Source of the DNA: Ideonella sp.
GTDB taxonomy: Bacteria; Pseudomonadota; Gammaproteobacteria; Burkholderiales; Burkholderiaceae_C
Assembly: GCA_015075545.1 (NCBI GenBank)
Contig: JABTUC010000001.1
Coordinates: 372,001-436,000 of the forward strand
Length of the DNA stretch: 64,000 nucleotides
Direction of reading: 5' to 3'
Part shown: piece after piece, positions 20,063-45,280 of the stretch
How positions within the stretch are numbered: the stretch's first letter is position 1
How the letters are laid out: each line of letters begins with the position of its first letter
Program-made: the position numbers and the translations under genes
Notes under the pieces: model-generated
The model's database searches: none
Told to the model about the DNA's origin: nothing
Seen by the model: only the letters and a program-made list of their open reading frames with translations

Positions 20063-20138
20063 TGGCAGGGGCAGAGGGAATCGAACCCCCAACCTTCGGT
20101 TTTGGAGACCGACGCTCTGCCAGTTGAGCTATACCCCT
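20063..20138 (-). tRNA. tRNA-Trp (CCA anticodon)
   Basis: The acceptor stem AGGGGTA/TGCCCCT, the D arm AGCTCAACTGGCAGAGC, the anticodon loop CTCCAAA and the T arm GGGGGTTCGATTCCCTC all form. CCA is encoded at the 3' end. It lies between tufB and secE, its classical place in betaproteobacteria. Confidence 0.97.
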
Positions 20139-20150
20139 GCGGAAATCGCC

Positions 20151-21341
<1,191 letters not shown>

Positions 21342-21412
21342 TGAGGTCTCCGACGTAAAGCGGGTCGCCCGTGCGAGCCCGGTCAGGTTGCTTGATTCCT
21401 ACTTCGCAGTCC

Positions 21413-21487
<75 letters not shown>

Positions 21488-21536
21488 ATCGACAAGGGTC
21501 TGGACACCTCGGGCGCCTTGCCCAGACCGCTGGCGA

Positions 21537-21610
21537 TGGAGCGGGAGACGGGAATCGAACCCGCGTCATTAGCTTGGAAGGCTAAGGTTCTGCCATTGAA
21601 CTACTCCCGC
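21537..21610 (-). tRNA. tRNA-Gly (TCC anticodon)
   Basis: The acceptor stem is GCGGGAG/CTCCCGC. The anticodon arm CTTAGCCTTCCAAGCTAA carries anticodon TCC, and the T arm CGGGTTCGATTCCCG is intact. CCA is encoded. Confidence 0.97.
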
Positions 21611-21676
21611 CTCGAGCCACCTTCAGTTGCCGCTGAATCGAGGCCTCCTCGATGGAGTCGTTCATGAGCGCTGCTT

Positions 21677-21762
21677 TGGTGGAGGAGGTTGGATTCGAAC
21701 CAACGTAGGCGTAAGCCAACAGATTTACAGTCTGCCCCCTTTAGCCACTCGGGCACCCCTCC
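21677..21762 (-). tRNA. tRNA-Tyr (GTA anticodon)
   Basis: A class II tRNA of 86 bases with a long variable arm. The acceptor stem is GGAGGGG, the anticodon arm AGACTGTAAATCT carries GTA, and CCA is encoded. It is the first gene of the tRNA-tufB operon. Confidence 0.97.
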
Positions 21763-30643: not shown

Positions 30644-33600
30644 ATGAACGCCCCGCTGCCCGAGTCGATCCGCAAGGCCCTGGAGAGCGTCACGCTCGAC
30701 GACAAGTACGCGCTCGAGTCGGGCCGCGCCTTCATGAGCGGCATCCAGGCGCTGGTGCGGCTGCCGATGCTGCAGCGCGTGCGCGACGCGTTGGCGGGGC
30801 TGAACACCGCCGGCTTCGTCAGCGGCTACCGCGGCTCGCCGCTCGGCGGCTACGACCAGTCGCTGTGGGCGGCCAAGAAGCACCTGGCGGCGCACCACGT
30901 GGTGTTCCAGCCCGGCGTCAACGAGGAGCTGGCCGCCACCGCGATCTGGGGCACGCAGCAGCTCGAATTCGACAAGGCCAACAACAAGTACGACGGCGTG
31001 TTCGGCATCTGGTACGGCAAGGGCCCGGGGGTCGACCGCTGCTCCGACGTGTTCAAGCACGCCAACCTCGCCGGCACCTCGCCGCACGGCGGCGTGATCG
31101 CGGTGGCCGGCGACGACCACGTCGCCAAGAGCAGCACCGCCGCGCACCAGAGCGACCACATCTTCAAGGCCTGCGGGCTGCCGGTGTTCTTTCCGTCGAG
31201 CGCGCAGGACATCCTCGACCTCGGGCTGCACGCCTTCGCGATGAGCCGCTTCGCGGGCGTGTGGACGTCGATGAAGACGATCCAGGAGGTGGTGGAGTCC
31301 GCGGCCAGCATCGACGTCAGCCCCGACCGCGTGAACATCGTGCTGCCGCGCGACTTCGCGATGCCGCCGGGCGGCGTGCACATCCGTTGGCCCGACGCCG
31401 CGCTGGCGCAGGAGGCGCGGCTGTTCGACTTCAAGTGGTACGCGGCGCTCGCCTACGTGCGTGCCAACAAGCTGAACCACAACGTGATCGCCGGGCCGAA
31501 CGACCGCTTCGGCATCATCGCCAGCGGCAAGGCGTTCAACGACACGCGCCAGGCGCTGGCCGACCTCGGGCTCGACGACGACACCTGCCGCGCGCTGGGC
31601 ATCCGGCTGCACAAGGTCAACGTGGTGTGGCCGCTCGACGCCATGATCACGCGCGATTTCGCGCAGGGGCTCGACGAGATCCTGGTGGTCGAGGAGAAGC
31701 GCCAGGTCATCGAGTACCAGCTGAAGGAAGAGCTGTACAACTGGCGCCCCGACGTGCGCCCCAACGTGCTGGGCAAGTTCGACCAGTCCGATGGCGACGA
31801 GGGTGGCGAGTGGAGCCGCCCCAACCCGAGCGGCAACTGGCTGCTGCGCGCCAACGCCGACCTGACGCCGGCGATCATCGCGCAGGCGATCGCAAGGCGG
31901 CTGAAGAAGCTGGGCGTCGGCGCCGACATCGCCGCGCGCATGGACGCGCGCATCGGCATCATCGAAGCCAAGGAGCGCGCGCTCGCCACCGGCGCCACCG
32001 GCGGCGCCGAGCGCCAGCCGTGGTTCTGCTCGGGCTGCCCGCACAACACCAGCACGCGCGTGCCCGAGGGCTCGCTGGCGATGGCGGGCATCGGCTGCCA
32101 CTTCATGGCGGTGTGGATGGGCCGCTCGACGGTGGGCTTCACGCAGATGGGCGGCGAGGGCGCGCCGTGGGTCGGCCAGGCGCCGTTCAGCAAGCGGCCG
32201 CACATGTTCGCCAACCTCGGCGACGGCACCTACTACCACTCGGGCTTCCTGGCGATCCGCCAGGCGATCGCCGCCAAGGTCAACATCACCTACAAGATCC
32301 TCTACAACGACGCGGTGGCGATGACCGGCGGGCAGCCGATCGACGGCGTGCTCACGGTGCCGCAGATCACGCGCGAACTGGAGGCCGAAGGCGCCAGGCG
32401 CATCGTGGTGGTGACCGACCAGCCCGAGAAGTACAACGGCCCGCTCAACCTCGCGCCCGGCGTCACCGTGCGCCACCGCGACGAGCTCGACGCCGTGCAG
32501 CGCGAGCTGCGCGAGGTCGAGGGCTGCACCATCCTCGTCTACGACCAGACCTGCGCCACCGAGAAGCGGCGCCGCCGCAAGCGCGGCAAGATGGAAGATC
32601 CGCCCAAGCGCGTGGTGATCAACGAGCTGGTGTGCGAGGGCTGCGGCGACTGCAGCGTGCAGAGCAACTGCCTGAGCGTCGAGCCGGTGGAGACCGAGTT
32701 CGGCCGCAAGCGGCGCATCAACCAGAACACCTGCAACAAGGACTACTCGTGCGTGAAGGGCTTCTGCCCGAGCTTCGTCACCGTCGAAGGCGGCCAGCTC
32801 AGGAAGCCGAAGAAGGAATCGGCGTCAACGCGCCCCGACCCCAACGCGCTGCCGCCGATCCCCGAGCCGGCGCTGCCGCTGGCCGAAACCGCGTGGGGCA
32901 TCGTGGTGGCCGGCATCGGCGGCACCGGCGTCATCACCATCGGCCAGTTGCTCGGCATGGCCGCGCACCTCGAGGGCAAGGGCGTCGTCACGCAAGACAG
33001 CGCCGGCCTGGCGCAGAAGGGCGGCGCCACCTGGAGCCACATCCAGATCGCCAACCGGCCCGAGGCCATCTACACCACCAAGGTCGACACCGCGAAGGCC
33101 GACCTGGTGATCGCCTGCGACGGCATCGTGGCCGCCGGCAAGGGCACCTTGAGCCTGATGCACGAAGGCCGCACGTTCGTGGCGCTGAACTCGCACGCCA
33201 CGCCGACCGCGGCGTTCGTCGGCAACCCCGACTGGCAGTTTCCGCAAGGCGGCTGCGAGGCCGCGCTGCACGCCGCGGTGGGCCAGGCCAAGCTCGGCCT
33301 GCTCGACGCCGACCAGGTGGCGGTGCAGCTGCTGGGCGACAGCATCTATGCGAACCCGCTGCTGCTGGGCTACGCCTGGCAGCGCGGCCAGGTGCCGCTG
33401 AGCCGCGCTGCGCTGCTGCGCGCGATCGAGCTCAACGGCGTGCAGGTGGAGAACAACAAGGCGGCGTTCGAATGGGGCCGCCGCTGCGAGCACGACTACT
33501 CAGCGGTGAGCGCGCTGTTCGCGGCGGCGCAAGTGATCGAGTTCGTGAAGAAGCCGTCGCTCGACGAGACGATCGCCCGGCGCGTGGAGTTCCTCACCGC

Positions 33601-34252
33601 GTATCAGGACGCCGACTACGCCGCGCAGTACCGCGCCTACATCGCCAAGGTGCGCGCGGCCGAGGCCGGCGCGAGCGCGAGCAGCACCAGGCTCACCGAA
33701 GCGGTGGCGCGCTATCTGTTCAAGCTGATGGCGTACAAGGACGAGTACGAGGTGGCGCGGCTGCACACCGACCCGGCATTCACCGCGAAGATCGACCAGA
33801 TGTTCGAAGGCGAGTACAAGCTCGTGCACTACCTGGCGCCGCCGCTGACCGCCAGGCGCAACGAGAAGGGCGAACTGGTCAAGCGAGCGTACGGCCCGTG
33901 GGTGCGCAAGGGCTTCGAGGTGTTGGCGAAGCTCAAGGGCCTGCGCGGCACGCCGCTCGACGTCTTCGGCTACAGCGCCGAGCGCAAGACCGAGCGGCGG
34001 CTGATCGACGAGTACAAGGCCAGCCTCGACGAGGTGCTGCGCAGCGGCCTGCTCGCCGAGGGCGAGCGGCTCGCGCTGGCGGTGCAGATCGCGCGCATCC
34101 CGGAAGAGATCCGCGGCTACGGGCACGTGAAGGCCCGGCATCTGGCGGCCGCGCGGACGAACTGGGAGACCTTGATGGTCAGATGGCGCGGCGGTGGCAG
34201 CGACAGCGCCGCCGGCGCCACGGGCGCAACGGCGAAGCGCCATACCGCCTGA
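30644..34252 (+). CDS. Indolepyruvate ferredoxin oxidoreductase family protein (IorA-IorB fusion)
   Basis: 1202 residues. The N-terminal part (1-400) is the pyrimidine-binding and transketolase-like region, with GYRGSPLGGYD. The thiamine diphosphate region includes FCSGCPHNTSTR near residue 463 and GDGTYYHSG. Cysteines in CEGCGDCSVQSNC and CNKDYSCVKGFCPS near 663-710 form the iron-sulfur site. The C-terminal gamma-like part starts with GIGGTGVITIGQLL near residue 760. The enzyme oxidatively decarboxylates aryl- or branched 2-oxo acids to acyl-CoA, reducing ferredoxin. The fused form with a long C-terminal extension is usual in aerobic proteobacteria. It stands alone, so the exact substrate is not clear. 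Confidence 0.93.
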   Translation: MNAPLPESIRKALESVTLDDKYALESGRAFMSGIQALVRLPMLQRVRDALAGLNTAGFVSGYRGSPLGGYDQSLWAAKKHLAAHHVVFQPGVNEELAATAIWGTQQLEFDKANNKYDGVFGIWYGKGPGVDRCSDVFKHANLAGTSPHGGVIAVAGDDHVAKSSTAAHQSDHIFKACGLPVFFPSSAQDILDLGLHAFAMSRFAGVWTSMKTIQEVVESAASIDVSPDRVNIVLPRDFAMPPGGVHIRWPDAALAQEARLFDFKWYAALAYVRANKLNHNVIAGPNDRFGIIASGKAFNDTRQALADLGLDDDTCRALGIRLHKVNVVWPLDAMITRDFAQGLDEILVVEEKRQVIEYQLKEELYNWRPDVRPNVLGKFDQSDGDEGGEWSRPNPSGNWLLRANADLTPAIIAQAIARRLKKLGVGADIAARMDARIGIIEAKERALATGATGGAERQPWFCSGCPHNTSTRVPEGSLAMAGIGCHFMAVWMGRSTVGFTQMGGEGAPWVGQAPFSKRPHMFANLGDGTYYHSGFLAIRQAIAAKVNITYKILYNDAVAMTGGQPIDGVLTVPQITRELEAEGARRIVVVTDQPEKYNGPLNLAPGVTVRHRDELDAVQRELREVEGCTILVYDQTCATEKRRRRKRGKMEDPPKRVVINELVCEGCGDCSVQSNCLSVEPVETEFGRKRRINQNTCNKDYSCVKGFCPSFVTVEGGQLRKPKKESASTRPDPNALPPIPEPALPLAETAWGIVVAGIGGTGVITIGQLLGMAAHLEGKGVVTQDSAGLAQKGGATWSHIQIANRPEAIYTTKVDTAKADLVIACDGIVAAGKGTLSLMHEGRTFVALNSHATPTAAFVGNPDWQFPQGGCEAALHAAVGQAKLGLLDADQVAVQLLGDSIYANPLLLGYAWQRGQVPLSRAALLRAIELNGVQVENNKAAFEWGRRCEHDYSAVSALFAAAQVIEFVKKPSLDETIARRVEFLTAYQDADYAAQYRAYIAKVRAAEAGASASSTRLTEAVARYLFKLMAYKDEYEVARLHTDPAFTAKIDQMFEGEYKLVHYLAPPLTARRNEKGELVKRAYGPWVRKGFEVLAKLKGLRGTPLDVFGYSAERKTERRLIDEYKASLDEVLRSGLLAEGERLALAVQIARIPEEIRGYGHVKARHLAAARTNWETLMVRWRGGGSDSAAGATGATAKRHTA

Positions 34253-35362: not shown

Positions 35363-35493
35363 ATGGATCCCCCTTCATTCGAGATGCTCGTTCCACTCGA
35401 GCAGCAGGATCCATCTTGCGATGCAAATCGTCGCGGACACTGAGGTGGCGCAACCTAGGCCACTGTTCGGGGGGCCACTCTAGAGGCTTGGCG

Positions 35494-36570
35494 TCACACG
35501 GCGTCGAGCGGGCTGCGCACGCCGCGGCCGCCGCGATTGAGCACGTGCGTGTAGATCATCGTCGTCTTGACATCGGCGTGGCCGAGCAGCTCCTGCACGG
35601 TGCGGATGTCGTAGCCCGCTTGCAGCAGGTGGGTGGCGAACGAGTGGCGCAGCACGTGCGGCGAGCACGGCTTGACGATGCCGGCGCGGCGCGCCGCGAT
35701 CGACACCGAACGCTGCACCGAGTTCTCGTGCAGATGATGGCGATGCTCGGCGCCCGAGCGCGGATCGACCGAGCGCGTGATCGACGGGAACACCCACTGC
35801 CAGCCCCATCGACGCGCGGCGTTCGGGTACTTGACCTGCAACGCGTCGGGCAGCCAGACATCGCCGCAACCCGCGGCGAGATCGCGCAGGTGCAGCTTGC
35901 GCACCAGCGCCAACTGGGTCTGCAGCGCGGCGATCAGGTTCTCGGGCAGCACGGTCACCCGATCCTTGGCGCCCTTGCCGTCGCGCACGAGAATCTCGCG
36001 GCGCTCGAACTCGATATCCTTGACGCGCAGGCGCAGCGCCTCGATCAGGCGCAGCCCGGTGCCGTAGAGCAGCGAAGCCACGAGGCCCATCGTGCCCGAC
36101 AGCTCGGCCAGCAGCAGCCGCACCTCCGACGGCGTGAGCACCACCGGCAGCCGCCGCGAGAGCTTGGCGCCGACCACCTCGTCGAGCCACGGCAGGTCGA
36201 CCGCCAGCACCTCGCGGTAGAGGAACAGCAGCGCCGACTTCGCCTGGTTCTGCGTCGACGACGACACCGAGCGCTCGACCGCCAGGTGAGTCAGGAACGC
36301 CTGCACCTCCGAAGCCCCGAGCCGAGCCGGATGGCGCCTGCCGTGGAAGACGACGAAGCGCCGCACCCAATCGACGTACGCCTGCTCGGTGCGGATCGAG
36401 TAGTGCCGCAGCCGCAGCGCGTCGCGCAGCCGCGGCAACAGCTTGGGAGGCGAGGCGGGTGCGACGGCCGGCGGCAGAGCGACCCCCGCGGGCCGGCTCA
36501 CGCCGCCGCCCAGGGGCTCGGCAGACTCGGCATCCGGGGTCGGACGGGGCTTGGTGATCTTGGTGGCCAT
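35494..36570 (-). CDS. intI: Integron integrase (tyrosine recombinase)
   Basis: 358 residues from the ATG at 36570, with in-frame ATGs further up and no clear ribosome-binding site. The catalytic set is complete: R174 (GTGLR), a lysine near 203, H305 and R308 (HVLRHSF), H331 (LGHADV) and Y340 (YTHV). The diagnostic extra segment of IntI proteins lies at 245-285, with [17 protein letters not shown] and then DPRSG and HHLHE. It recombines folded single-stranded attC sites into attI. Residues 1-42 are a Pro/Ala-rich extension beyond the usual start. It is transcribed away from the cassettes. No LexA box was seen by eye. Confidence 0.95.
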
Positions 36571-36729
36571 GCCCGAGAATTTAGGCATGCCATTGCACCC
36601 ACGCATCGCCCCCAAGACGGACTCGAAGCGGGCCCCCGAAAGGGGGTTACGGTCGATTCCTCACGTAAAGAATCAGCCCATTAGGCAGAGCCGGGTACTT
36701 CAATCCGCTCTGTCCATTTAACGTTAGGC
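36571..36729 (+). other. attI region with the first cassette junction
   Basis: This non-coding stretch between intI and the first cassette ends with AACGTTAGGC; the GTTAGGC box at 36723-36729 is the cassette insertion point. A second box-like sequence, ATTAGGC, lies about 45 bases upstream, and a CCCCC-GAAA-GGGGG hairpin sits at 36633-36646. The integrase promoter and any cassette promoter must lie here or inside intI. I could not pick convincing -35/-10 pairs. Confidence 0.7.
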
Positions 36730-36736
36730 GCCGCAA

Positions 36737-37051
36737 GTGCAACAGCTCGAGCCGCCGAATCTCAACGCTCCGCTGTATCGGTGTGACTGGTCAACTCTCT
36801 GGTTCGCCCTGGCGAGTGCCGCTTGCGCGTGGCTCTGGCACAGACCTACTGCTCTTTCGCTCGTTCTCACTTCTGTGGCGCTCGGCGGTCCAGTGTTCTT
36901 TTTCGCCCTTGGCCCCGCCTTGCATCGCGTTCGCTATCACCGGTCGCTACTCATTCGCGCGCTCTTTCTCATAATCGCAGTCGGGGCCGTGATCGTGGTC
37001 ATGGATCACATCGTCCCCGCTGTACACGCGTATGTGTCTAGCAACGCCTAA
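36737..37051 (+). CDS. Cassette 1: hypothetical membrane protein
   Basis: 104 residues from a GTG at 36737, eight bases inside the cassette. There are three likely membrane helices: about residues 22-37, 42-62 and 72-95. No charged catalytic motif or known domain is recognised. The TAA stop lies in the attC1 RYYYAAC box, the usual arrangement for a cassette gene. As first in the array it is closest to any promoter in attI or intI and so the most likely to be expressed. Function unknown. Confidence 0.7.
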   Translation: MQQLEPPNLNAPLYRCDWSTLWFALASAACAWLWHRPTALSLVLTSVALGGPVFFFALGPALHRVRYHRSLLIRALFLIIAVGAVIVVMDHIVPAVHAYVSSNA

Positions 37052-37123
37052 CCCGTCGTTGCACCTGACTGGCTACAGCGGGCTTCGCCCGCTTCCGCCA
37101 GCAGGTGAACTCCAACGTTAGGC
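37046..37123 (+). repeat. attC site 1
   Basis: 78 bases from GCCTAAC to GTTAGGC. Inner arms CACCTG/CAGGTG and CTGGC/GCCAG flank the apical palindrome GCGGGCTTCGCCCGC. Confidence 0.95.
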
Positions 37124-37126
37124 CGC

Positions 37127-37504
37127 ATGAGCGTGCCAATGCGTGCGGTTGCCACCGAGGTCTGGAAGTCCTACCCTCTTCCATTCTTGGCGCTGCTCCC
37201 AGCCTTCACCAACGTCGATGCCCTCCTGGCCATCTTCTTTTCTCTTCATGGAGGCCTCGCTTGGCTGCTGATACTTGCTGCTCTGCCATGGGTCGTCATC
37301 CGCATCGCGCGGGTGCTTCTCGCAGGTGAAGCTAGCAAATGGCAACGCAAATCTCATGCACTCGGAATCGCAATTGGGTACGTGTTTGTCAGCCTGGCTT
37401 CCAGCACTTTCTTAGCATGGCGCTTGAGTCCACCGCTAAAGCTCACGCTCGCCAATGTGCTGCCGTCTTACTTTTTCCCACTGAGCATGCTCGTTGGCCA
37501 CTAG
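37127..37504 (+). CDS. Cassette 2: hypothetical membrane protein
   Basis: 125 residues from the ATG at 37127, only three bases after the attC1 boundary. Hydrophobic segments at about residues 17-38, 42-62, 80-98 and 105-122 suggest three or four membrane helices. The stop is TAG at 37502, about 20 bases before attC2. No family is recognised. It lacks its own visible ribosome-binding site apart from attC sequence, so translation may depend on the upstream site. Function unknown. Confidence 0.7.
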   Translation: MSVPMRAVATEVWKSYPLPFLALLPAFTNVDALLAIFFSLHGGLAWLLILAALPWVVIRIARVLLAGEASKWQRKSHALGIAIGYVFVSLASSTFLAWRLSPPLKLTLANVLPSYFFPLSMLVGH

Positions 37505-37523
37505 CATGGCATCTGCGTATGCG

Positions 37524-37601
37524 GCCTAACCCGTCGTTGCACCTGACGTTCAACAGCCGGCTTCGCCGTCTGTTGCCCGCAGGTGAACTCCAACGTTAGA
37601 C
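37524..37601 (+). repeat. attC site 2 (second stem type)
   Basis: 78 bases from GCCTAAC to GTTAGAC. The outer boxes match the other sites, but the apical stem is CAACAG...CTGTTG around CGGCTTCGCCG instead of the GCGGGC stem. Confidence 0.93.
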
Positions 37602-37632
37602 CGCACCGATACCAACAAGCGAACCTGCGCCA

Positions 37633-38163
37633 ATGAAACTTGTCTTCGCTCTGGTCCTTGTGCTCTTGGTCGCAGTAGCGCTCGTTGTCATCAAGCTCCT
37701 AGGCTTGCTCTCTACGCGGGCGCCAGGCACTTGGCCTTTCTACGTAAAGCGTCCGCTCTCTCAGCCCGAGCAGGTGCTTTACCACCGCCTGGTTCGTGCT
37801 CTGCCAGAGCACATCGTCCTGGCTCAGGTTCAAGTTTCGCGCGTGCTCGGGGTAAAGAAGGGCGCAAACTTTCACGAGTGGAACAATCGCATCAATCGCT
37901 TGAGCTACGATTTCGTCGTATGCGGCAAAGACTCGACCGTCATTGCCGCAGTCGAGCTCGACGACAAGACGCATGAAGCGAAGGACCGAGCGTCAACGGA
38001 CGAGAAGAAGAGCAAGGCGTCTGCCGATGCGGGTCTACGGTTGCTTCGGTGGCATGCTCGTGCGCTTCCCAGTGAGGAAGTCATTCGCCAAGAGATTTTG
38101 CCGCCGCCGAGCCCGACGCAGGAATCTGCCGCGTCCGCACTCAGGGTCAAAGGTGCGGTCTAA
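37633..38163 (+). CDS. Cassette 3: membrane-anchored DUF2726 protein
   Basis: 176 residues. One N-terminal membrane helix covers about residues 4-26. A DUF2726 domain then runs from about 42 to 155, opening with LSQPEQVLYHRL and containing SYDFVVC (D93) and AAVELDDKTH (E108, D110, D111, K112), followed by a conserved Asp/Lys-rich helix. This arrangement resembles restriction-endonuclease-like folds, so nucleic acid cleavage or binding is possible but unproven. The TAA stop lies in attC3. An N-terminal anchor would hold the domain at the inner membrane. Confidence 0.8.
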   Translation: MKLVFALVLVLLVAVALVVIKLLGLLSTRAPGTWPFYVKRPLSQPEQVLYHRLVRALPEHIVLAQVQVSRVLGVKKGANFHEWNNRINRLSYDFVVCGKDSTVIAAVELDDKTHEAKDRASTDEKKSKASADAGLRLLRWHARALPSEEVIRQEILPPPSPTQESAASALRVKGAV

Positions 38164-38235
38164 CCCGCCGTTGCACCTGACTGGCTACAGCGGGCTGCGC
38201 CCGCTTCCGCCAGCAGGTGAACTCCAACGTTGGGC
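38158..38235 (+). repeat. attC site 3
   Basis: 78 bases from GTCTAAC to GTTGGGC. The GTCTAAC box complements the GTTAGAC that opens cassette 3. The apical stem is the GCGGGC type. Confidence 0.95.
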
Positions 38236-38253
38236 GTCACAGGAGTAACCGCA

Positions 38254-39285
38254 GTGGCTTGGGCCGTTCCACAGCATACAAAAGGGCAAGTCGACCGAGC
38301 TGGCCGCACGCTGGTCACGACCAAAGTTCCCCTTCCCGATCTCCTTGACGCGTACAGCGTGATCAACAACTGGCGGTCGTCGCACAGTTTCCCGCTCAAC
38401 ACCTTTCAGGTCACTCTCCGCAATCGTGCGCGCCAGATTGATGGAGACGCCCTGATCGCCCAGCGAATCAAACGCCTGAGCTCAATTGAGGCGAAGCTCG
38501 TCCGCTTTCCGAAGATGAATCTCTCGCAAATGCAGGACATCGGGGGGTGCCGATCCGTCGTCAGCAATGTGGCGATGGTGAGAGCCGTGGTGGATCTGCA
38601 TCGCAAGTCAGACGTTAAGCACAAGCTCCTTCGTGTCGATGACTATCTCACTATGCCGCAGCCCTCGGGCTACCGAGGTGTCCACCTGATCTATCGGTAT
38701 TTCAGCGACAGGAGCGAGACATACAACGGGCTTCAAATCGAAATCCAGATCCGCTCCGTCCTTCAACACGCGTGGGCGACAGCAGTCGAGACCGTTGGCA
38801 CTTTTCTGAAGCAGGCACTCAAATCAAGTCAGGGACACTCGGACTGGCTCCGCTTCTTCACAGTTATGGGCTCGGTCCTTGCCGCGCGCGAGCGGACGAG
38901 CCTCGTTGCCAACACACCTACCGATCGCCCAGCTCTTCTCACCGAGCTTCGCAAATGGGTGCGGTTGCTCGATGTCGAGCGCCGACTTCAGGCGTATGGC
39001 GATGCGCTTCGTACGCTGGAAGACCCAAGCGCCTCCACCGCGCACTACTTCCTCCTGTCGCTTGACCCAAAGGCGGACACAACCACAATTCATGGCTTCG
39101 CTCGTGGCGAACTCGAGTACGCGACCAAACAATACCTGGAGCTTGAGCGTTCCCTTGATGCCACTACCGGTGCGGAAGCGGTCCTCGTATCCGTCGAGTC
39201 AATCGCCGCACTAAAGCGTGCGTACCCCAACTACTTTCTCGACACCCGAGCCTTCTTGAATGCGGTGCAACGCGCACTGGCGTAG
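38254..39285 (+). CDS. Cassette 4: RelA/SpoT-type (p)ppGpp synthetase domain protein
   Basis: About 343 residues from a GTG at 38254 with AGGAG eight bases upstream. The alarmone synthetase domain covers roughly residues 40-185 and looks catalytically intact. RIKRLSSIEAKL lines the nucleotide site; D95 and R100 lie in MQDIGGCRS; the G-loop is PSGYRGVHL; E163, Q165 and R167 lie in IEIQIRS; QHAWA follows. There is no HD hydrolase domain and no TGS or ACT domain, so it cannot degrade alarmone. Residues 190-343 form a helical C-terminal region. Relatives include small alarmone synthetases and toxic toxSAS enzymes. No partner antitoxin is visible in the cassette. Confidence 0.88.
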   Translation: MAWAVPQHTKGQVDRAGRTLVTTKVPLPDLLDAYSVINNWRSSHSFPLNTFQVTLRNRARQIDGDALIAQRIKRLSSIEAKLVRFPKMNLSQMQDIGGCRSVVSNVAMVRAVVDLHRKSDVKHKLLRVDDYLTMPQPSGYRGVHLIYRYFSDRSETYNGLQIEIQIRSVLQHAWATAVETVGTFLKQALKSSQGHSDWLRFFTVMGSVLAARERTSLVANTPTDRPALLTELRKWVRLLDVERRLQAYGDALRTLEDPSASTAHYFLLSLDPKADTTTIHGFARGELEYATKQYLELERSLDATTGAEAVLVSVESIAALKRAYPNYFLDTRAFLNAVQRALA

Positions 39286-39299
39286 GCGCGAGCGGTGAC

Positions 39300-39377
39300 G
39301 CCCAACCCTTCGTTGCACCCGACTCGCTACAGCGGGCTTCGCCCGCTTCCGCGAGCGGGTGAACTCAACCGTTAGAC
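39300..39377 (+). repeat. attC site 4
   Basis: 78 bases from GCCCAAC to GTTAGAC. The inner arms are CACCCG/CGGGTG and CTCGC/GCGAG, compensatory changes relative to attC1. Confidence 0.95.
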
Positions 39378-39694
39378 CGAATGGCCCTTCCATTCGCCAC
39401 CACCGAGCGAGGCCACAGCAGCGCTCTCTATGCGCGCGAGGCACCGAGCTCTTGGTCGAGCGCGCGGCCTCGCGGTAGCGCGGCACCGGAGCGCCTGGCT
39501 GCCGCCGCGCTTGCCTGGGCCAGGGTAGGCTGCATTCTGAGCATGCGAGGCGAGTCACAGATCGGCAGCTATCGTGGCTTGCCGCGGTTGCCCATGCGGG
39601 CCATTCGGCCTAACGTCGGCCTCGTGGCCAGCGATTCAAGTCGTCGTTCGGCTGGGCCAGTGTCTCGCAATCCCACTCGTGCGCGGGCCACTCG
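39378..39694 (+). other. Cassette 5: no convincing gene
   Basis: About 317 bases between two intact attC sites. The only frame of length starts at an ATG at 39381 but has a low-complexity Arg/Ser/Ala-rich product and runs straight through attC5, so it does not look like a real protein. GGCCTAACGTC near 39607 resembles the start of an attC, suggesting two older cassettes fused after losing a site. The cassette may carry an RNA, a promoter, or nothing. Confidence 0.6.
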
Positions 39695-39772
39695 GTCTAA
39701 CCCGTCGTTGCACCTGACAGCCTACAGCGGGCTTCGCCCGCCTCCGGCTGCAGGTGAACTCCAACGTTAGAC
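39695..39772 (+). repeat. attC site 5
   Basis: 78 bases from GTCTAAC to GTTAGAC. The inner arm has become CAGCC/GGCTG, again with both sides changed together. Confidence 0.95.
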
Positions 39773-39785
39773 CGAACGGCACGCG

Positions 39786-40661
39786 ATGAGCACGCCCGTT
39801 ACCCCGCCCAAGAGCTTTAGCCCTCCCGCTAAGGGTGCGTCCATTCACGTTGACGGCCGCTACTATTTCATCGGCGACTTCATGAACCGCGGGTACTTCG
39901 GCGACGTCTACGCTTGTTCCGACGAGTGGGGCAACGAGCTGGTAGCCAAAGTGCTTGTGCCACGCGATCAGACATACGAGCAAGTTCGTGAGAACTGGCT
40001 GGCCGAGCTTCGCAAGCTGCTCGACCTGCGCCATCCCAATGTCACCTACGTCCACGCTGCATTTGAGTGCGACGACACCTTCCATCTTGTGATCGAGCGC
40101 TGCTCCATGACACTCGACACCGTCATCAATTTGCAGAACCTGAAGCCTGACTCATGGATTCCCTACGTCGCCCGGGACATCCTACAGGGGCTTGAGTACA
40201 TCCACAGCAATGGCTATGTTCACAAAGACATCCACCCGGGCAATATCTTTGTGTCGCAAACACACGATCGGATGCTCCCCAGCAAGGATCCAGTCTGGTC
40301 GTTCAAGATTGGCGATCTCGGCATTTCGCGGCTCGAAACCGAGATCAATGCCTTCAACACGCTCCTGGCCCAATGGATGCTGCCGCCCGAGGCAATTGAC
40401 TCCGCTCAGTTCGGTACGATCGCCCGTACCGTTGACATCTATCACGTCGGGCTATTGCTCTTGGCGCTGCTGCTCAATCGGACTCCCGCGTTCACTCGGG
40501 AGGAGATTCTCGCCGGCCACCCAAGGGAGTTGGCAGAGCAGCACAGCTCTCGTTTCGCGCCCGCGATCGCTCGTGCCCTGAGGCGCCATGTAGCCTCTCG
40601 AACGCCAACAGCCATGCACTTTTGGCGCGAAATCCATGCCTGCACGCAGAGTTCGGTCTAA
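39786..40661 (+). CDS. Cassette 6: Hanks-type Ser/Thr protein kinase
   Basis: 291 residues forming a single kinase domain. The glycine loop is NRGYFGDVYA (about 34-43); the ATP-anchoring lysine is K55 (ELVAKVL); the helix C glutamate is probably E74. The catalytic loop is HKDIHPGN (H146-N153) with D148 as base. The metal aspartate is D177 in GDLG, in place of the usual DFG, and PPE at 200-202 replaces APE. Key residues are present, so activity is likely. No membrane helix or sensor domain is attached. The TAA stop lies in attC6. A kinase gene is unusual cargo for an integron cassette; its target is unknown. Confidence 0.88.
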   Translation: MSTPVTPPKSFSPPAKGASIHVDGRYYFIGDFMNRGYFGDVYACSDEWGNELVAKVLVPRDQTYEQVRENWLAELRKLLDLRHPNVTYVHAAFECDDTFHLVIERCSMTLDTVINLQNLKPDSWIPYVARDILQGLEYIHSNGYVHKDIHPGNIFVSQTHDRMLPSKDPVWSFKIGDLGISRLETEINAFNTLLAQWMLPPEAIDSAQFGTIARTVDIYHVGLLLLALLLNRTPAFTREEILAGHPRELAEQHSSRFAPAIARALRRHVASRTPTAMHFWREIHACTQSSV

Positions 40662-40733
40662 CCCGTCGTTGCACCTGACTGGCTACAGCGGGCTTCGCCC
40701 GCTTCCGCCAGCAGGTGAACTCCAACGTTAGCC
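40656..40733 (+). repeat. attC site 6
   Basis: 78 bases from GTCTAAC to GTTAGCC, almost identical to attC1 across the inner arms and apical stem. Confidence 0.95.
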
Positions 40734-40753
40734 CGCGGAGCTACAGTACGCGC

Positions 40754-40989
40754 GTGGCCCCCACCATTGTTCGCGACGGCCAGTTCCGCCTGTTCTTCTT
40801 CTCGCGGGAGGAGACACGAATTCACGTCCATGTCGCGCACCCGATGGCGAGGCAAAGTACTGGCTCACGCCAACGGTACACTTGGCCGTCAACATCGGGC
40901 TCTCGCCCTCGCAACTGCGGCAAGCACAGTCTGTCGTGGAGGCACACACCCGGGAGATCGAAGATGCCTGGCACCGTCATTTCGGCTGA
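40754..40989 (+). pseudogene. Cassette 7, first gene: DUF4160 protein with a one-base frameshift
   Basis: From the GTG at 40754 the product reads APTIVRDGQFRLFFFSREET and then IHVHVAHP, the typical DUF4160 start. At about 40842 the frame must shift by one base to continue as DGEAKYWLTPTVHLAVNIGL, ending at TGA 40987-40989. Restoring one C in the CACCCGATGG run would repair it. As read, the first part stays open in frame with the DUF2442 gene that follows, so a single abnormal fused product of about 150 residues is possible. DUF4160 and DUF2442 genes usually lie together and are suspected toxin-antitoxin partners. Confidence 0.75.
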
Positions 40990-41212
40990 AGTCACCAACG
41001 TATCCGTGCACGGGTTCTGGCTCCTCCTCGGTGATGAGGAGTTGTCCGTCTCCTTCAGCGAATTCCCGTGGTTCAAGAAGGCCACCATAGAGCAACTATC
41101 GGACGTTCAGCGACCAACCGAGAACCATCTGTACTGGCCGCAACTCGACGTTGATCTCTCCGTCGAGTCGATTCGCGCTCCTTCGGCCTTTCCGCTCGTC
41201 TCTGCGGGCTAA
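40964..41212 (+). CDS. Cassette 7, second gene: DUF2442 protein
   Basis: 82 residues from the ATG at 40964, reading AEVTNVSVHGFWLLLGDEEL and FSEFPWFKKATIEQL, the recognisable DUF2442 pattern. The start overlaps the 3' end of the DUF4160 frame by 26 bases, as expected for a coupled pair. The TAA stop lies in attC7. The protein appears complete. The family is small and often paired with DUF4160 in integrons and toxin-antitoxin-like loci; the biochemical role is not known. Confidence 0.85.
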   Translation: MPGTVISAEVTNVSVHGFWLLLGDEELSVSFSEFPWFKKATIEQLSDVQRPTENHLYWPQLDVDLSVESIRAPSAFPLVSAG

Positions 41213-41284
41213 CCCGTCGTTGCACCTGACGTTCAGAAGCCGGTTTCGCCGTCTGTTGTCCGCAGGTGAACTTCAACGTTAGCC
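41207..41284 (+). repeat. attC site 7 (second stem type)
   Basis: 78 bases from GGCTAAC to GTTAGCC, with a CGGTTTCGCCG-type apex like attC2. Confidence 0.93.
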
Positions 41285-41333
41285 ACCGGAAAGACCCTCT
41301 TGTTTGCCTGTATCCTATGTGCTACAGTAACTC

Positions 41334-41623
41334 GTGCTCGACGTTCGCCAAACCGCAGCCTATGGCGCCTGGTACTCGGCTCTGCGGGATCGAGCAGCCA
41401 AGGTTCGTATCGACATCCGCATTCGCAGGCTCTCTCTCGGCAATCCAGGCGATGTCAAGGCTGTCGGTGAGGATGTCTCCGGGCTTCGGGTGAACTTCGG
41501 TCCTGGTATCGCGTGTATTTCATTCAGAAGGGTACCGAACTCATCGTCCTGCTCGCCGGAGGCGACAAGGCAACACAGGATCGCGATATCCGCCAGGCCA
41601 AGGCGCTCGCTCCTGAGCTGTAG
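41334..41623 (+). pseudogene. Cassette 8, first gene: HigB/RelE-type toxin with a one-base frameshift
   Basis: From the GTG at 41334 the frame encodes VRQTAAYGAWYSALRDRAAK and [20 protein letters not shown], the start of the phage-derived Gp49/HigB-like killer family. After FGPG at about 41506 the reading frame must move by one base to continue [20 protein letters not shown] and end with ALAPEL at TAG 41621-41623. One base missing in CCTGGTATCG explains this. As read, the toxin loses its C-terminal catalytic part and is probably inactive. A programmed shift or an assembly error is the alternative. The antitoxin gene starts nine bases later. Confidence 0.85.
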
Positions 41624-41632
41624 GAGTTCGAA

Positions 41633-41938
41633 ATGCCAAAGGCTGTCACTTCTCCCTGGGATCCAGCCGAACACCTCACCACCGAGGCAGATATGGCCGC
41701 GTACCTCGAAGCAGCGCTCGAGGAGGGTGACTCTGCGCTCGTCGCTGCGGCGCTCGGCGATATCGCGCGAGCCAAGGGTATGTCGCATGTCGCGCGCGAA
41801 GCAGGCCTTGGCCGCGAGAGTCTGTACAAGGCCCTCTCGCCTGGCGGCAATCCAGAGTTCGCCACGGTTCTGAAGGTGGTCGCGGCGCTCGGTCTGCAGT
41901 TGCATGCAGCGCCTGCGAGCGAGAAGGCCGCTGGCTAA
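41633..41938 (+). CDS. Cassette 8, second gene: HigA-type addiction module antitoxin
   Basis: 101 residues. The antidote-family start is seen in SPWDPAEHLTTEADMAAYLE, followed by a helix-turn-helix with MSHVAREAGLGRESLYKALS. It is complete, with the TAA stop in attC8. Such antitoxins bind the toxin encoded just upstream and repress their shared promoter. The toxin-first order is normal for this HigBA class. With the toxin frameshifted, the antitoxin may remain as an anti-addiction factor or simply as a relic. Confidence 0.9.
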   Translation: MPKAVTSPWDPAEHLTTEADMAAYLEAALEEGDSALVAAALGDIARAKGMSHVAREAGLGRESLYKALSPGGNPEFATVLKVVAALGLQLHAAPASEKAAG

Positions 41939-42010
41939 CCCGTCGTTGCACCTGACTGGCTACAGCGGGCTGCGCCCGCCTCCGCCCGCAGGTGAACTCC
42001 AGCGTTAGCC
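41933..42010 (+). repeat. attC site 8
   Basis: 78 bases from GGCTAAC to GTTAGCC. The apex is the GCGGGC type; one inner arm is less well paired than in attC1. Confidence 0.94.
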
Positions 42011-42400
42011 CGCAGCCAGCGATTCGGCGTGCTTCGGAAAGGCCTTCAAGAGTTTGGCGTCCATCGTGACAAGCTTGACCTGCAGCTTCCGCGCCAACGC
42101 AACGAACTCGCAGTCGTACGCCGAGCAATCACTGTCGCGCACCAGCGCCAGTACCGCCTTTGAGTCAACCTCGAACTCTGACCCTGCAAGCAGATCTTCG
42201 GCTTCGCTCTGCAGGCCACAGGCTTGCGCGAAGGTCAGGGTCTTGCGCCTCAGGTAGCCCGCAAGAATGTTGCGAAACTCACTGCGCCACAGCACGGGCA
42301 CCGCCCAGTCCGGGTCTCGTTCGAGCAGGGCCTCAGCCTTGGCGGTGTTATCTCCGGGCAAGTACAAATACGCCACTACGTTCGAGTCCACCACAATCAC
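42005..42400 (-). CDS. Cassette 9: VapC-type PIN-domain toxin (reversed cassette gene)
   Basis: 131 residues from a GTG at 42400 that overlaps the antitoxin stop as GTGA. The four PIN acidic residues are present: D5 (VVDSN), E41 (RSEFRN), D96 (SAYDCEFVALA) and D114 (VTMDAK). It is expected to be a magnesium-dependent ribonuclease cutting tRNA or rRNA. The gene runs against the array, and its TAA stop lies in the GTTAGCC box of attC8. The reading frame is intact, unlike the other toxins in this array. Confidence 0.9.
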   Translation of the reverse strand: MIVVDSNVVAYLYLPGDNTAKAEALLERDPDWAVPVLWRSEFRNILAGYLRRKTLTFAQACGLQSEAEDLLAGSEFEVDSKAVLALVRDSDCSAYDCEFVALARKLQVKLVTMDAKLLKAFPKHAESLAAG

Positions 42401-42642
42401 GTGCGTCCTTCGCGCTTGGCCGCATCGATGTCTTTCGCCCGGAACTTCCCCTTCGGCAGCGCCGCCCGTAGCGCTCGTGCGCGAGCGAGGCGCTCGGCCG
42501 GAGCGACCCTGCTGGTCAGTAGTGCTGCCTCCAAACACACGATCGCCTCACTGTTCATGCTGCGTCGGTGTGTCTCCGCGGAAAGCTTCAGGCGCTCGTA
42601 CACCTCATCAGGTATGTTCTTCAAAGTCAGCGTCGTAGGCAT
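42397..42642 (-). CDS. Cassette 9: ribbon-helix-helix antitoxin partner of the VapC-type toxin
   Basis: 81 residues. The N-terminus TTLTLKNIPDEVYERLKLSA with RRSMNSEAI is a ribbon-helix-helix (FitA/Arc-like) DNA-binding domain. The C-terminal part, with KGKFRAKDID, would wrap the toxin. It precedes the toxin and overlaps it by three bases (GTGA), which gives translational coupling. The upstream region holds direct and inverted repeats fitting autoregulation. Together the pair form a complete type II module with its own promoter, independent of an integron promoter. Confidence 0.88.
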   Translation of the reverse strand: MPTTLTLKNIPDEVYERLKLSAETHRRSMNSEAIVCLEAALLTSRVAPAERLARARALRAALPKGKFRAKDIDAAKREGRT

Positions 42643-42655
42643 AAGACTTTGCCCC

Positions 42656-42682
42656 CACCAAAATGGTGCCATTATGGTGCCA
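42656..42682 (-). promoter_or_regulatory. Operator/promoter of the reversed VapBC-like module
   Basis: The direct repeat TGGTGCCA occurs at 42664-42671 and 42675-42682, and CACCA/TGGTG forms an inverted repeat at 42656-42668. On the minus strand CATAATGG between the repeats supplies a -10-like sequence. The site lies 14 bases before the antitoxin ATG, as expected for an autoregulated toxin-antitoxin operon. Confidence 0.6.
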
Positions 42683-42708
42683 GCGCCCGAGACAGGCAAG
42701 GCACTGCG

Positions 42709-42786
42709 GCCTAACCCGCCGTTGCACCTGACTGGCCACAGCGGGCTGCGCCCGCTTCCGCAGGCGGGTGAACTCAAACGTTGGAC
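42709..42786 (+). repeat. attC site 9
   Basis: 78 bases from GCCTAAC to GTTGGAC. The GCCTAAC box does not exactly complement the GTTAGCC that opens its cassette. Confidence 0.94.
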
Positions 42787-42800
42787 CGCGCGAGCCACTC

Positions 42801-43175
42801 GTGTTTGACCACGTCGTATTCGGAGCTAGCGACTATGCGGCAAGCAAGGCGTTCTTCCTTAGGGCGCTGGCCCCGCTTGGCGTAGTTGTTGCCTCGGAAG
42901 GCCCGCTCGGTATCGAGCTCTGCCGTCCGAACAGCGAGGGATCGCTGTGTATCCGCCTACAACCCGAGCAGAAGCCCTCGCATCTGCACCTGGCATTCAC
43001 TGCCGAGAGTCGCGAGCAAGTGCAAGCGTTCTATTGCGCGGCGCTGGAGGCCGGGGCGAAAGACAATGGTCCGCCTGGTCTACGCCCGCAGTACAGCGGG
43101 AGATACTTTGCCGCCTTCGTCATTGGGCCCGACGGGCACAACATCGAAGCGGTCTACCATGAACCCGAGGCCTAA
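42801..43175 (+). CDS. Cassette 10: VOC-family (glyoxalase/dioxygenase-like) protein
   Basis: 124 residues from a GTG at 42801: FDHVVFGASDYAASKAFFLR opens the first beta-alpha-beta module, and VIGPDGHNIEAVYHEPEA closes the second. The metal-site candidates are H4 and E119. Members include glyoxalase I-like enzymes, dioxygenases and binding proteins for fosfomycin or bleomycin; the substrate is not predictable. The frame is also open back to a GTG inside attC9, which would add eleven residues. The TAA stop lies in attC10. Confidence 0.85.
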   Translation: MFDHVVFGASDYAASKAFFLRALAPLGVVVASEGPLGIELCRPNSEGSLCIRLQPEQKPSHLHLAFTAESREQVQAFYCAALEAGAKDNGPPGLRPQYSGRYFAAFVIGPDGHNIEAVYHEPEA

Positions 43176-43247
43176 CCCATCGTTGCACCTGACCTTCAAC
43201 AAGCGGCTCCGCCGCTTGTCCCCCACGGGTGAGCTCCGACGTTGGGC
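43170..43247 (+). repeat. attC site 10 (second stem type)
   Basis: 78 bases from GCCTAAC to GTTGGGC, with a CAAGCGGC...GCCGCTTG apical stem. It is the most divergent of the intact sites. Confidence 0.9.
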
Positions 43248-43433
43248 GTATACAGGCGCCGGCGTAGAGCCGCACGGGCCGACGGAGTTCTAACAGGCCC
43301 CGCGGCAGAACCACGATTGCTGCGGTCTCGTACACCTGCTCATGGCCCAGGTGACGATCGTCCGACTTCGCCATCTGATTCGGACGCTCAGCTGTGTAGC
43401 AGCGTGCCTGTGGTTCAGTTCGAGGCGGCCGAG
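43248..43433 (+). other. Cassette 11: short terminal cassette without a clear gene
   Basis: About 186 bases between attC10 and a degenerate attC. An ATG at 43342 opens a frame of about 33 codons before it enters the attC remnant, but it has no ribosome-binding site or stop codon there. No family is recognised. Confidence 0.5.
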
Positions 43434-43490
43434 GCCTAACCCGCTGTTGCAACTGACTGGCTGGTTCACTGGAGCGGACCTCCAACGACG
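43434..43490 (+). repeat. Degenerate terminal attC
   Basis: It begins normally with GCCTAACCCGCTGTTGCAACTGACTGGC-like sequence but lacks the apical GCGGGC stem and ends with CTCCAACGACG in place of CTCCAACGTTAG. Only about 57 bases remain. It marks the far end of the array. Confidence 0.75.
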
Positions 43491-43775
43491 CAGCCGCGCG
43501 CGCGCGGCCGAGCCCAAACGACAAGGGTCTCCCCGGCTGCTCGGGAAGCACGCCTCCTCGAGCCGCACCCAGCGGCTCGAACTGTTTCCGGCCAAGATAG
43601 AGTTGACACTGGGGCGCAATGCCGCTGGCGGCCACGGCCTGGTGCTTGTTGCTGGGTGCGGTTCGTGCCCTGGGTCGATCGGAGCTACCGCAATGCATGC
43701 ACGAAGCAAGATGGGTCAAGAAGGCGGGGCGATGTCCTGGCCGCACGGCCTCGCCCGGGCTTCCAGGAGGCCGCT
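43491..43775. other. Non-coding stretch beyond the integron
   Basis: No supported gene is seen. GC rises back to the chromosomal level. Open frames on both strands here have low-complexity products and no ribosome-binding sites. An isolated TTGACA near 43600 has no -10 partner. Confidence 0.5.
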
Positions 43776-44078
43776 GTGAATCTGCCGCCTCCTCGACTGG
43801 TGTTCCTGGCGGCGATGATCGTCCTCCTCGCAGGCTCGGTCGCGCTCACGGTCTACTCCTTCGTGCCTTCTGCGGCATCCGGGCGCACGCCCGATATCAC
43901 ACTGGTCGACGTCGCACTGCCGTCGGTGCTCGCGGTGGCGGTGGCTCAGGCGATGTCGTACCCGTCGGTGGGGCACCGGCTGGCCGCCAGCACCGTCTTG
44001 CTGGTGGGAGGGTGGCTGGTCACGTTGATCGTCGGGCTCGTGATCGGGTGCGGGTTCTATGGCGCCTGCTCCAAGTGA
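43776..44078 (+). CDS. Small hypothetical membrane protein
   Basis: 100 residues from a GTG at 43776 with AGGAGG five bases upstream, a strong start. Three hydrophobic segments lie at about residues 7-26, 42-58 and 68-92. No family is recognised. Its 3' end overlaps the ASCH gene by 20 bases, so the two are probably cotranscribed. It is the first chromosomal-type gene after the integron, judged by its high third-position GC. Confidence 0.7.
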   Translation: MNLPPPRLVFLAAMIVLLAGSVALTVYSFVPSAASGRTPDITLVDVALPSVLAVAVAQAMSYPSVGHRLAASTVLLVGGWLVTLIVGLVIGCGFYGACSK

Positions 44079-44607
44079 GGCGCCCGCGGACGCGCAGCCG
44101 TTCAGCGCGGCAGGCGGCGGCGCCGTGCCGATTCCCTCGCACCTGGCGCGGTTCTGGCGGCGCTTCGTCGCTGTGGCCGGCCCAGTCGACGACACGCGCT
44201 TCTACGAGGCCTTCTCTTTCGGCGACAGCCCTGCCATGGCCGATGAACTGGCTGCGCTCGTGCTGCGAGGCACCAAGCGGGCCACCGCCGGCTCGCTCTG
44301 GTCCTTCGAGGCACATGGCAAGCGGCTTCCGGTGCCGGGGGATCTCAGCATCGTCACCGGCGGGTCGGGCGCACCGTTGTGCATCATCGAGACGCGCGCC
44401 GTCGACATCGTGCCGTTCGACGAAGTCGATGCCGGCTTCGCTGCCGCCGAAGGCGAAGGCGATGGCTCGCTGCCGTACTGGCGCGATGCCCATCGGCAAT
44501 ACTTCGCTCGCGAATGCGCCCGCGACGGGCGCGAGTTCAGCGGGCGCATGCCCGTTGTCTGCGAACGCTTCGATGTCGTCTACCAACCCGCAGCCCCGGT
44601 GCGCTGA
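44059..44607 (+). CDS. ASCH domain-containing protein
   Basis: 182 residues with the ASCH pattern of the YhfF-like subgroup: FSFGDSPAMADELAALVLRG, TKRATAGSLW, PGDLSIVTGGSGAPLCIIET and a C-terminal PVVCERFDVVY. ASCH proteins bind RNA or nucleosides, and some are ribonucleases or amidohydrolases; no precise role can be given. The conserved TKRAT lysine is present. The first 25 residues are a variable extension, and the true start may be later. It overlaps the preceding small membrane protein gene. Confidence 0.82.
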   Translation: MAPAPSEAPADAQPFSAAGGGAVPIPSHLARFWRRFVAVAGPVDDTRFYEAFSFGDSPAMADELAALVLRGTKRATAGSLWSFEAHGKRLPVPGDLSIVTGGSGAPLCIIETRAVDIVPFDEVDAGFAAAEGEGDGSLPYWRDAHRQYFARECARDGREFSGRMPVVCERFDVVYQPAAPVR

Positions 44608-44689
44608 CCGGCTTCGCTCCAGCAGGCCGAGGCGTCCGCCGTCGGGCGACGCGCATGCCGGCACGTGTTCGTCCGACTGAAGGCACGCC

Positions 44690-45280
44690 GTGCAACTCGT
44701 GCGGCCTGCCGCAGCCTACCTCGCGAGCTACCGGGCGGCGCTCGAGCGCGGCTGGTCGCCCGACAACCTGCGCGGCGCCGTGGCCACTGCCGAAGAGCTG
44801 GCGCGCATCGCCGCCGATGCGCCGGCGTTCATCGCCAGCCTCGAAGACCGCGAGGCGCGCGGCGCACCGATCGCGCTGCCCGACGGCTCGACGGCTCGGC
44901 GCATTCCGGGCTTCAGGCGCTGGATGTGGGACGGCGAGTTCTGCGGCAGCATCAGCCTGCGCTGGCAGCCCGGCACCGCCGAGCTGCCGCCGCACTGCCT
45001 CGGCCACATCGGCTATACGGTGGTGGCGTGGAAGCGGCGGCTGGGCTATGCCCGCTCCGCGCTGGCGCAACTGCTGCCCGAGGCCCGGGCCATCGGCCTG
45101 CCGTACGTCGAGATCACCACCGAGCCGCACAACCTGGCCTCGCAGCGGGTGATTCTCGCGAACGGCGGGGTGCTCGTCGGGCCGTTCACGACGCCGGCCT
45201 CGCTCGGCGGTGCGGCCGGCCTGCGCTATCGCGTTGCGCTGGCACCGCAACCCGCGGCGCCGAGCCACGCTGCCGGATGA
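44690..45280 (+). CDS. GNAT-family N-acetyltransferase
   Basis: 196 residues from a GTG at 44690. The acetyl-CoA-binding core is seen in GHIGYTVVAWKRRLGYARSA, followed by EITTEPHNLASQRVILANGG, a GNAT motif A and B arrangement. The N-terminal 60 residues are a helical extension seen in GNATs that act on small molecules. Acceptor unknown. Its stop overlaps the next start as ATGA, so it is coupled to the DUF167 gene. Confidence 0.85.
   Translation: MQLVRPAAAYLASYRAALERGWSPDNLRGAVATAEELARIAADAPAFIASLEDREARGAPIALPDGSTARRIPGFRRWMWDGEFCGSISLRWQPGTAELPPHCLGHIGYTVVAWKRRLGYARSALAQLLPEARAIGLPYVEITTEPHNLASQRVILANGGVLVGPFTTPASLGGAAGLRYRVALAPQPAAPSHAAG

Follow-up and report, generated by a model that had tools for sequence, protein, structure and literature searches.

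What kind of element do an integrase gene and the 78-bp repeats beside it form in the chromosome of Ideonella sp., and what do the segments between the repeats carry? The stretch analyzed here (the window: 64,000 nucleotides, bases 372001–436000 of contig 1, JABTUC010000001.1, of assembly GCA_015075545.1, a 13-contig genome of 3.69 Mb given as 85% complete) holds a sedentary chromosomal integron of a betaproteobacterium. We are highly confident of this identification, which rests on an intact integron integrase (IntI), ten attC sites of canonical anatomy, a platform common to congeners and cassette sets that differ between them. The host is a distant relative of Burkholderia, and its integron is real but ordinary, a natural gene-collecting platform. 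By analogy with known integrons, IntI would bind the folded bottom strands of the attC sites and cut cassettes out as circles, and these would insert at the attI site beside intI, so that the array would gain, lose and reorder cassettes over time; the same analogy suggests expression from a promoter of the platform.

The integrase and its attC sites

IntI matches family TIGR02249 at 466 bits (cut-off 265), is the only match above that cut-off in the genome, and is encoded by a full-length frame that stays open without internal stops. Its residues 45–356 align without large gaps to the solved structure of IntI4 (2a3v_A, E 1.4e-89) across the region specific to integron integrases; the catalytic residues R, K, HxxR, H and Y are all present. 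Profile and structure thus both identify an IntI-type tyrosine recombinase with the IntI-specific region, to judge from its sequence an ordinary TIGR02249 member. Identity reaches 93% with the IntI of G001 (residues 1–312), one of the five congeners (G001–G005) that were compared with the present genome, making six genus genomes in all. It is at most 76% with other relatives among the best 80 from public genomes, and 59.7–60.8% (query residues 56–358) with 15 plasmid records among the matches listed, of which 14 bear the annotation intI1. A quick tree of 101 IntI rows, with supports from the Shimodaira–Hasegawa-like approximate likelihood ratio test (SH-aLRT), places the five IntI-bearing genus members in one group (SH-aLRT 99), which sits within a set of 20 rows, 12 labeled Betaproteobacteria and 8 unlabeled (SH-aLRT 95). 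The attI core, AACGTTAGGC at 36720, is kept in G001, as judged by sequence comparison.

It is the bottom strand of attC that recombines in integrons, and the bottom-strand consensus of the ten related sites has the arrangement R''-spacer-L''...L'-spacer-R', with R and L stems, unpaired spacers, extra-helical bases and, in the L stem, a base left unpaired; 8 of its 29 pairs show one or more compensatory changes. The sites have a mean column identity of 89% and come in two stem variants. When folding was compared with 200 shuffles per site, the bottom strands of nine sites beat all or nearly all of them (z −6.3 to −2.7). A covariance model built from these ten attC themselves scores them at 77–106 bits; its other matches on the bottom strand of the window all reach 14.4 bits or less, with no further full site, and genome-wide at E ≤ 0.001 it returns the ten and four top-strand echoes only (150 of 10,005 first-look candidates scored). 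Applied to other organisms, at 80 IntI loci, this model picks out 71 sites in 23 of the loci, all on the intI strand and with a best E of 1e-15; many of the remaining loci hold little sequence beyond intI. Because attC-like sites thus occur beside intI in other organisms too, those of the window are genuine attC, not a repeat peculiar to this genome.

The cassettes themselves add to this picture. Among 91 genus cassettes with higher-scoring sites, the two ends of each cassette can pair with one another through position 11 and the ends of neighbors pair at random level, as expected if cassettes exist as circles; in other organisms such own-end pairing is weaker (42 cassettes, after 5 pairs were dropped; locus L024 contributes four rows that are near-copies of one cassette). 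Complementary ends were rejected as a discovery of their own, since extended self-pairing of cassette ends, to 9–11 nt, already appears in excerpts of PMC2727003, those of PMC3053210 bringing nothing further. In cassettes 1, 3, 6, 7, 8 and 10 (window 36724–43241), the last gene has its stop codon inside the attC R'' box.

Table 1 Features of the integron and related copies (positions in the window unless a locus L is named)
Feature	Position	Strand	Remarks
intI, integron integrase	35494–36615	−	373 amino acids with a TTG start; ATG at 36570 (358 amino acids) is the likely start
attI region	36616–36723	+	Insertion point after G at 36723 (AAC-GTTAGGC); conserved up to there in G001
Ten attC sites, 78 bp each	37046–43247	−	Divergent from intI
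attC1	37046–37123	−	
attC2	37524–37601	−	
attC3	38158–38235	−	
attC4	39300–39377	−	
attC5	39695–39772	−	
attC6	40656–40733	−	
attC7	41207–41284	−	
attC8	41933–42010	−	
attC9	42709–42786	−	
attC10	43170–43247	−	
Cassette 1, membrane-like protein, 104 amino acids	36724–37117	+	No family
Cassette 2, membrane-like protein, 125 amino acids	37118–37595	+	No family
Cassette 3, DUF2726 (nuclease-like) protein	37596–38229	+	PF10881 68 bits
Cassette 4, RelA/SpoT-domain protein, PADLOC PDC-S33	38230–39371	+	PDLC04999 391 bits, E 1.3e-117; PF04607 58 bits
Cassette 5, gene-less, family A	39372–39766	+	Substitutions without third-position excess in 5 relatives
Near-invariant center block of cassette 5	39594–39629	+	Inverted copy of the cassette 5' end (39370–39387)
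Cassette 6, Ser/Thr protein kinase	39767–40727	+	PF00069 103 bits
Cassette 7, frame-split DUF4160 gene, then intact DUF2442	40728–41278	+	DUF2442 62 bits
Cassette 8, RelE/HI1419-like toxin gene and intact HI1420-type antitoxin	41279–42004	+	TIGR02684 129 bits
Cassette 9, PIN toxin (42008–42403) and FitA-like ribbon-helix-helix antitoxin (42397–42642)	42005–42780	−	PF01850 36.5 bits; PF22513 48 bits
Cassette 10, glyoxalase/VOC protein	42781–43241	+	PF00903 30 bits
Cassette remnant with truncated attC (43434–43526)	43242–43526	+	42-nt half-site copy, 81% to attC8 copy
Small membrane-like protein lacking attC, probably a former cassette	43656–44078	+	61% over 97 amino acids to protein in G001 cassette
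Probable ex-cassette, ASCH-domain protein without attC	44059–44607	+	PF04266 83.5 bits; 68% over 135 amino acids to protein adjoining G004 attC
Family B/C copies	L133 9121–11079, 9437–9735, 15330–15985; L137 12366–12609; L138 14557–14801; L132 498–741		

A sequence-only reading of this DNA had described a chromosomal integron with eleven cassettes in a betaproteobacterium, whose integrase, with its diagnostic segment, stands divergent from ten near-identical attC sites. That finding is right in substance and slightly overstated in count and novelty. The type and orientation of the integrase hold good; so does its chromosomal setting, with 35400–44700 showing no match in 72,556 plasmid records at megablast sensitivity, and its betaproteobacterial placement agrees with both the list of relatives and the tree. 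The ten sites are all there at 78 bp, "near-identical" being a little strong for the column identity and the two stem variants; ten of the cassettes are complete and the eleventh is a remnant. Its view that integrase and attC family look undescribed stands at species or genus level only, given an ordinary IntI so close to that of a congener.

Platform and arrays in the genus

Matches to attC occur in all six genus genomes, G003 having just one, and IntI (E ≤ 1e-60) in five, the exception again being G003, which is 82% complete. In G001 and G002 the left-flank gene (30644–34252) adjoins intI, so that integrase and left flank are common to two of the five congeners, and in G001 the right flank adjoins an array end. 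In that genome an IS110-family transposase gene separates the last attC from the right flank (L142 2469–3413, G001:C135). To the left of the integron in the window, four tRNA genes occupy 20066–21762 on the minus strand, with no link to it here.

Cassette content varies between these relatives, as the sequence-only reading had proposed to check with strains of one species. In 13 genus stretches, five of the ten complete cassettes (5, 7, 8, 9 and 10) have DNA relatives and cassettes 1, 2, 3, 4 and 6 have none; the order differs as well, the relative of cassette 9 being first in G001 and its counterpart ninth in the window. In G004, array and integrase are separated: 79 bottom-strand attC matches extend over ~45 kb (L137–L139, G004:C2:366328–411729) without an IntI match there, and intI lies on a different contig (L136, G004:C1 region), where the 13 kb covered contain no attC. 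In G001 a 3.4-kb insertion, which encodes three consecutive tyrosine recombinases, interrupts intI (L132 9935–13349, G001:C51); eight window bases, 35643–35650, lie in both alignment pieces of this gene, as a target duplication would give.

In its combination of intI, attI, an array of related attC and cassette turnover, the locus resembles the Vibrio superintegron and the Xanthomonas ilvD integron. Clusters of attC sites lacking integron-integrases (CALINs) and inactivated intI genes in relatives have a parallel in Xanthomonas (excerpts of PMC12444791), and taxon-specific attC, for which models are in print, are a trait of known chromosomal integrons (excerpts of PMC8352920). Unlike the Vibrio and Xanthomonas integrons, this one belongs to another genus and site and has a small array, although congener G004 has 79 attC without a nearby intI. 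The case thus adds a genus-level integron in Burkholderiales in which array turnover and array–integrase separation can be followed.

Several observations weigh against so straightforward an identification. The integration site is not common to G004 and G005: both flank genes of G005 are on contigs other than that of intI, and in G004 the left-flank gene is on another contig than intI and the right-flank gene 1.8 Mb away on the same contig. Turnover is shown between congeners, not between strains of one species. A sigma-70 scan gave two sites against 1.2 expected, none near attI. Folding is uneven too: the bottom strand of attC9 is unexceptional (z −1.43, with 22 of 200 shuffles as good), the top strands of three sites fold about as well as the bottom (z −6.1, −4.1 and −4.1), that of attC10 folding better, and the predicted ensembles of attC9 and attC10 contain no L stem. 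At several sites the R arm is poorly paired within the array, with values below 0.33 for attC2, 3, 4 and 6 folded as the site alone.

Cassette cargo and competing explanations

Profile matches bear out the cargo of toxin–antitoxin, alarmone, kinase and nuclease-like families that had been read from the sequence. The strongest is that of the cassette 4 protein to PDC-S33, which covers residues 11–350 of 351 and model positions 3–342 of 349 and is thus full-length. The cassette 6 kinase matches the PADLOC models mad6 (103 bits) and PD-T4-6 (up to 86 bits), and NCBIfam MAD6 at 71 bits, far below its cut-off of 460. In cassette 7 (window 40754–40986), DUF4160 positions 2–21 lie in one frame (12 bits) and 25–65 in another (36 bits), and the toxin gene of cassette 8 (41334–41632) leaves its frame after about residue 59, so that TIGR02683 matches residues 3–59 only, at 55 bits and below the cut-off. 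Whole relatives of these toxin-type genes exist (in G005 for cassette 7, in G001 and G005 for cassette 8). The frame shifts may be either mutations or assembly errors. The genes of cassette 9 run opposite to those of the other cassettes. At E 0.05, PADLOC gave no match for the proteins of cassettes 1, 2, 3, 8, 9 and 10, cassette 7 lying outside the scan.

Beyond attC10, the truncated site of the remnant scores 14.2 bits with the full-site model (E 0.18), the level of a chance match, and was recognized through its 42-nt half-site copy. The zone of former cassettes probably extends to ~44.6 kb. With a G+C of 0.674 and 0.698, the two genes at its far end resemble the host (0.689 in the window) more than the array (0.607); they could be either cassettes that lost their attC through decay or chromosomal genes with cassette copies elsewhere.

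The sequence-only reading also held that the array may serve as a phage-defense store, kept because its cassettes are defense genes. Toxin–antitoxin pairs, the DUF2726 protein, the kinase and above all PDC-S33 fit this idea, which titles in the reference list of PMC12444791 (Darracq 2025, Getz 2025, Kieffer 2025) already propose for other integrons. The ten cassettes nevertheless include one strong candidate, the resemblance of the kinase being weaker; the others include membrane-like proteins of no family, a cassette without a gene and toxin-type genes with shifted frames, and the proteins of six cassettes, as noted, have no PADLOC match. PDC-S33 was found at E ≤ 1e-40 in 12 of 300 genomes of the order, and a genus-tuned model detected no attC in the 2.5–4 kb around each of the 11 other loci, so that PDC-S33 as a usual integron gene is unsupported. 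Defense as the reason for the array is therefore possible but doubtful. PDC-S33, whose PADLOC entry carries no description and whose defense function is a candidate one, is here carried as an integron cassette and offers a concrete defense candidate.

Could intI and the array instead be relics of a dead or dying integron? The remnant and the attC-less former cassettes at the far end, the shifted frames, the poor folding of attC9 and attC10 at that end and the split intI of G001 would all suit such a history; the intI of the window, however, is full length, and attC1–8 keep L stems in their predicted ensembles, which makes decay of the whole a very unlikely account. A recently landed mobile integron of class 1 type is extremely improbable. 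The array does have a G+C below that of the host, but the region lacks any plasmid match at the sensitivity used, the platform with its left flank is common to two congeners, and, among the matches listed, IntI is only ~60% identical to the plasmid enzymes, mostly IntI1. IntI1 is a member of the same family on a different platform, and neither a near-identical IntI1 nor a mobile context was found, no search by name having been made for the 3'-conserved segment. A sedentary chromosomal integron thus remains the identification that the evidence supports.

Gene-less cassette families

The most interesting part of the locus is a family of cassettes without genes. Family A comprises seven copies in three of the six genomes (cassette 5, four in G001 and two in G004), the five relatives aligned in full being 61–84% identical to cassette 5. 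An open frame spans this cassette, but a coding reading was rejected, as none of five comparisons (the shorter seventh copy left out) shows an excess of third-position substitutions and two of the five contain gaps not divisible by three. A structured RNA was also rejected: cassette 5 folds as a single sequence with z −3.8 on the plus and −2.8 on the minus strand, and covariation gives no support (term +5.45, though 14 of 85 pairs show two-sided change), being likewise weak for family B (−0.66); the gene-less cassettes have no match in Rfam.

What is conserved in family A is a set of three nearly fixed blocks, at the 5' end, the 3' end and the center. Over six copies, 31 of the 36 columns of the center block are invariant, against a maximum of 25 in 5000 column shuffles. 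A 24-base pattern from the center of cassette 5 is found, with at most one mismatch, in arrays of the genus alone; 399 genomes of the taxonomic family yielded one further match, with three mismatches, and a reversed control likewise gave one. Among 123 genus cassettes (9 of the window's 10 included), ends matching at four or five of positions 12–16 occur in ten, all short (244–329 bp): the seven of family A and three of the six of family B. Family A is like the non-coding cassettes of Vibrio in being gene-less, multi-copy and lineage-restricted, such cassettes having been suggested to be selfish or functional (excerpts of PMC1382264); unlike anything mentioned in those excerpts, its members carry their own 5' end a second time, inverted and almost invariant, and their two ends stay complementary nearly through position 16.

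These features, combined with model folding, raise the possibility that cassette 5 is a gene-less "lock" that controls integron recombination, as a function or as a selfish strategy, an idea that we regard as unlikely. The R' arm of attC is the place that IntI must cut. On the bottom strand, the inverted 5'-end copy, ~220 bases inside the cassette, would pair with the upstream attC at its R' arm; this would stop that site from folding and fix both cassette 5 and its upstream neighbor in the array, and the longer complementary ends would let the free cassette circle fold and insert. When the bottom strand of the upstream attC (78 bp) was folded together with 260 bases from the cassette after it, the probability that the R' arm pairs outside the attC was 0.96–0.99 in all seven family A cases. 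Capture of at least 0.8 was seen in two of six cases of family B, none of three of family C and 1 of 107 other cassettes. For family A it falls to 0–0.35 if the center block is masked or only 150 bases are included; with 400 bases, six of seven reach at least 0.98 and one 0.28, and with 600 bases, five exceed 0.95 and two are at 0.23 and 0.56. At five family A sites, the pairing of the R arm within its own attC drops from 0.57–0.97 with the block masked to nearly 0 unmasked.

At the other two sites, that of the window included, this pairing is already 0.03–0.09 without the block, which would thus change little there because the arm folds poorly anyway. Also telling against a lock, capture of at least 0.8 occurs in 2 of 30 random non-A cassettes at 260 bases and in 5 at 400; the median own R pairing of these 30 falls from 0.47 (60 bases) to 0.07 (400 bases), so that weak R pairing is common in longer stretches. 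The seven copies are moreover related and represent one evolutionary event, so that test values overstate their independence, and equilibrium folding takes no account of kinetics, of proteins or of how long the single-stranded DNA really is. The conserved blocks could instead be a promoter or another regulatory site, promoter activity of gene-less cassettes being described for Vibrionaceae in excerpts of PMC11014356, or family A could simply be a selfish cassette, as already raised for Vibrio in the work on non-coding cassettes cited above. The lock idea does not appear in those parts of the literature that were searched; if true, it would mean that cassette excision is subject to a testable control in cis, and it would give gene-less cassettes a role.

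Two further families occur in several copies, B (244–250 bp, gene-less) and C (293–299 bp, probably gene-less). The idea that A, B and C form one superfamily finds uneven backing. The mean similarity between A and B, 19.5 against 16.8 for block-shuffled sequences, is hardly above the control, the shuffled maximum being higher; the corresponding values are 22.7 against 16.4 for A and C and, the clearest excess, 25.0 against 16.3 for B and C, the last two families having short motifs in common, for example a block of 21 bases close to the 3' end.

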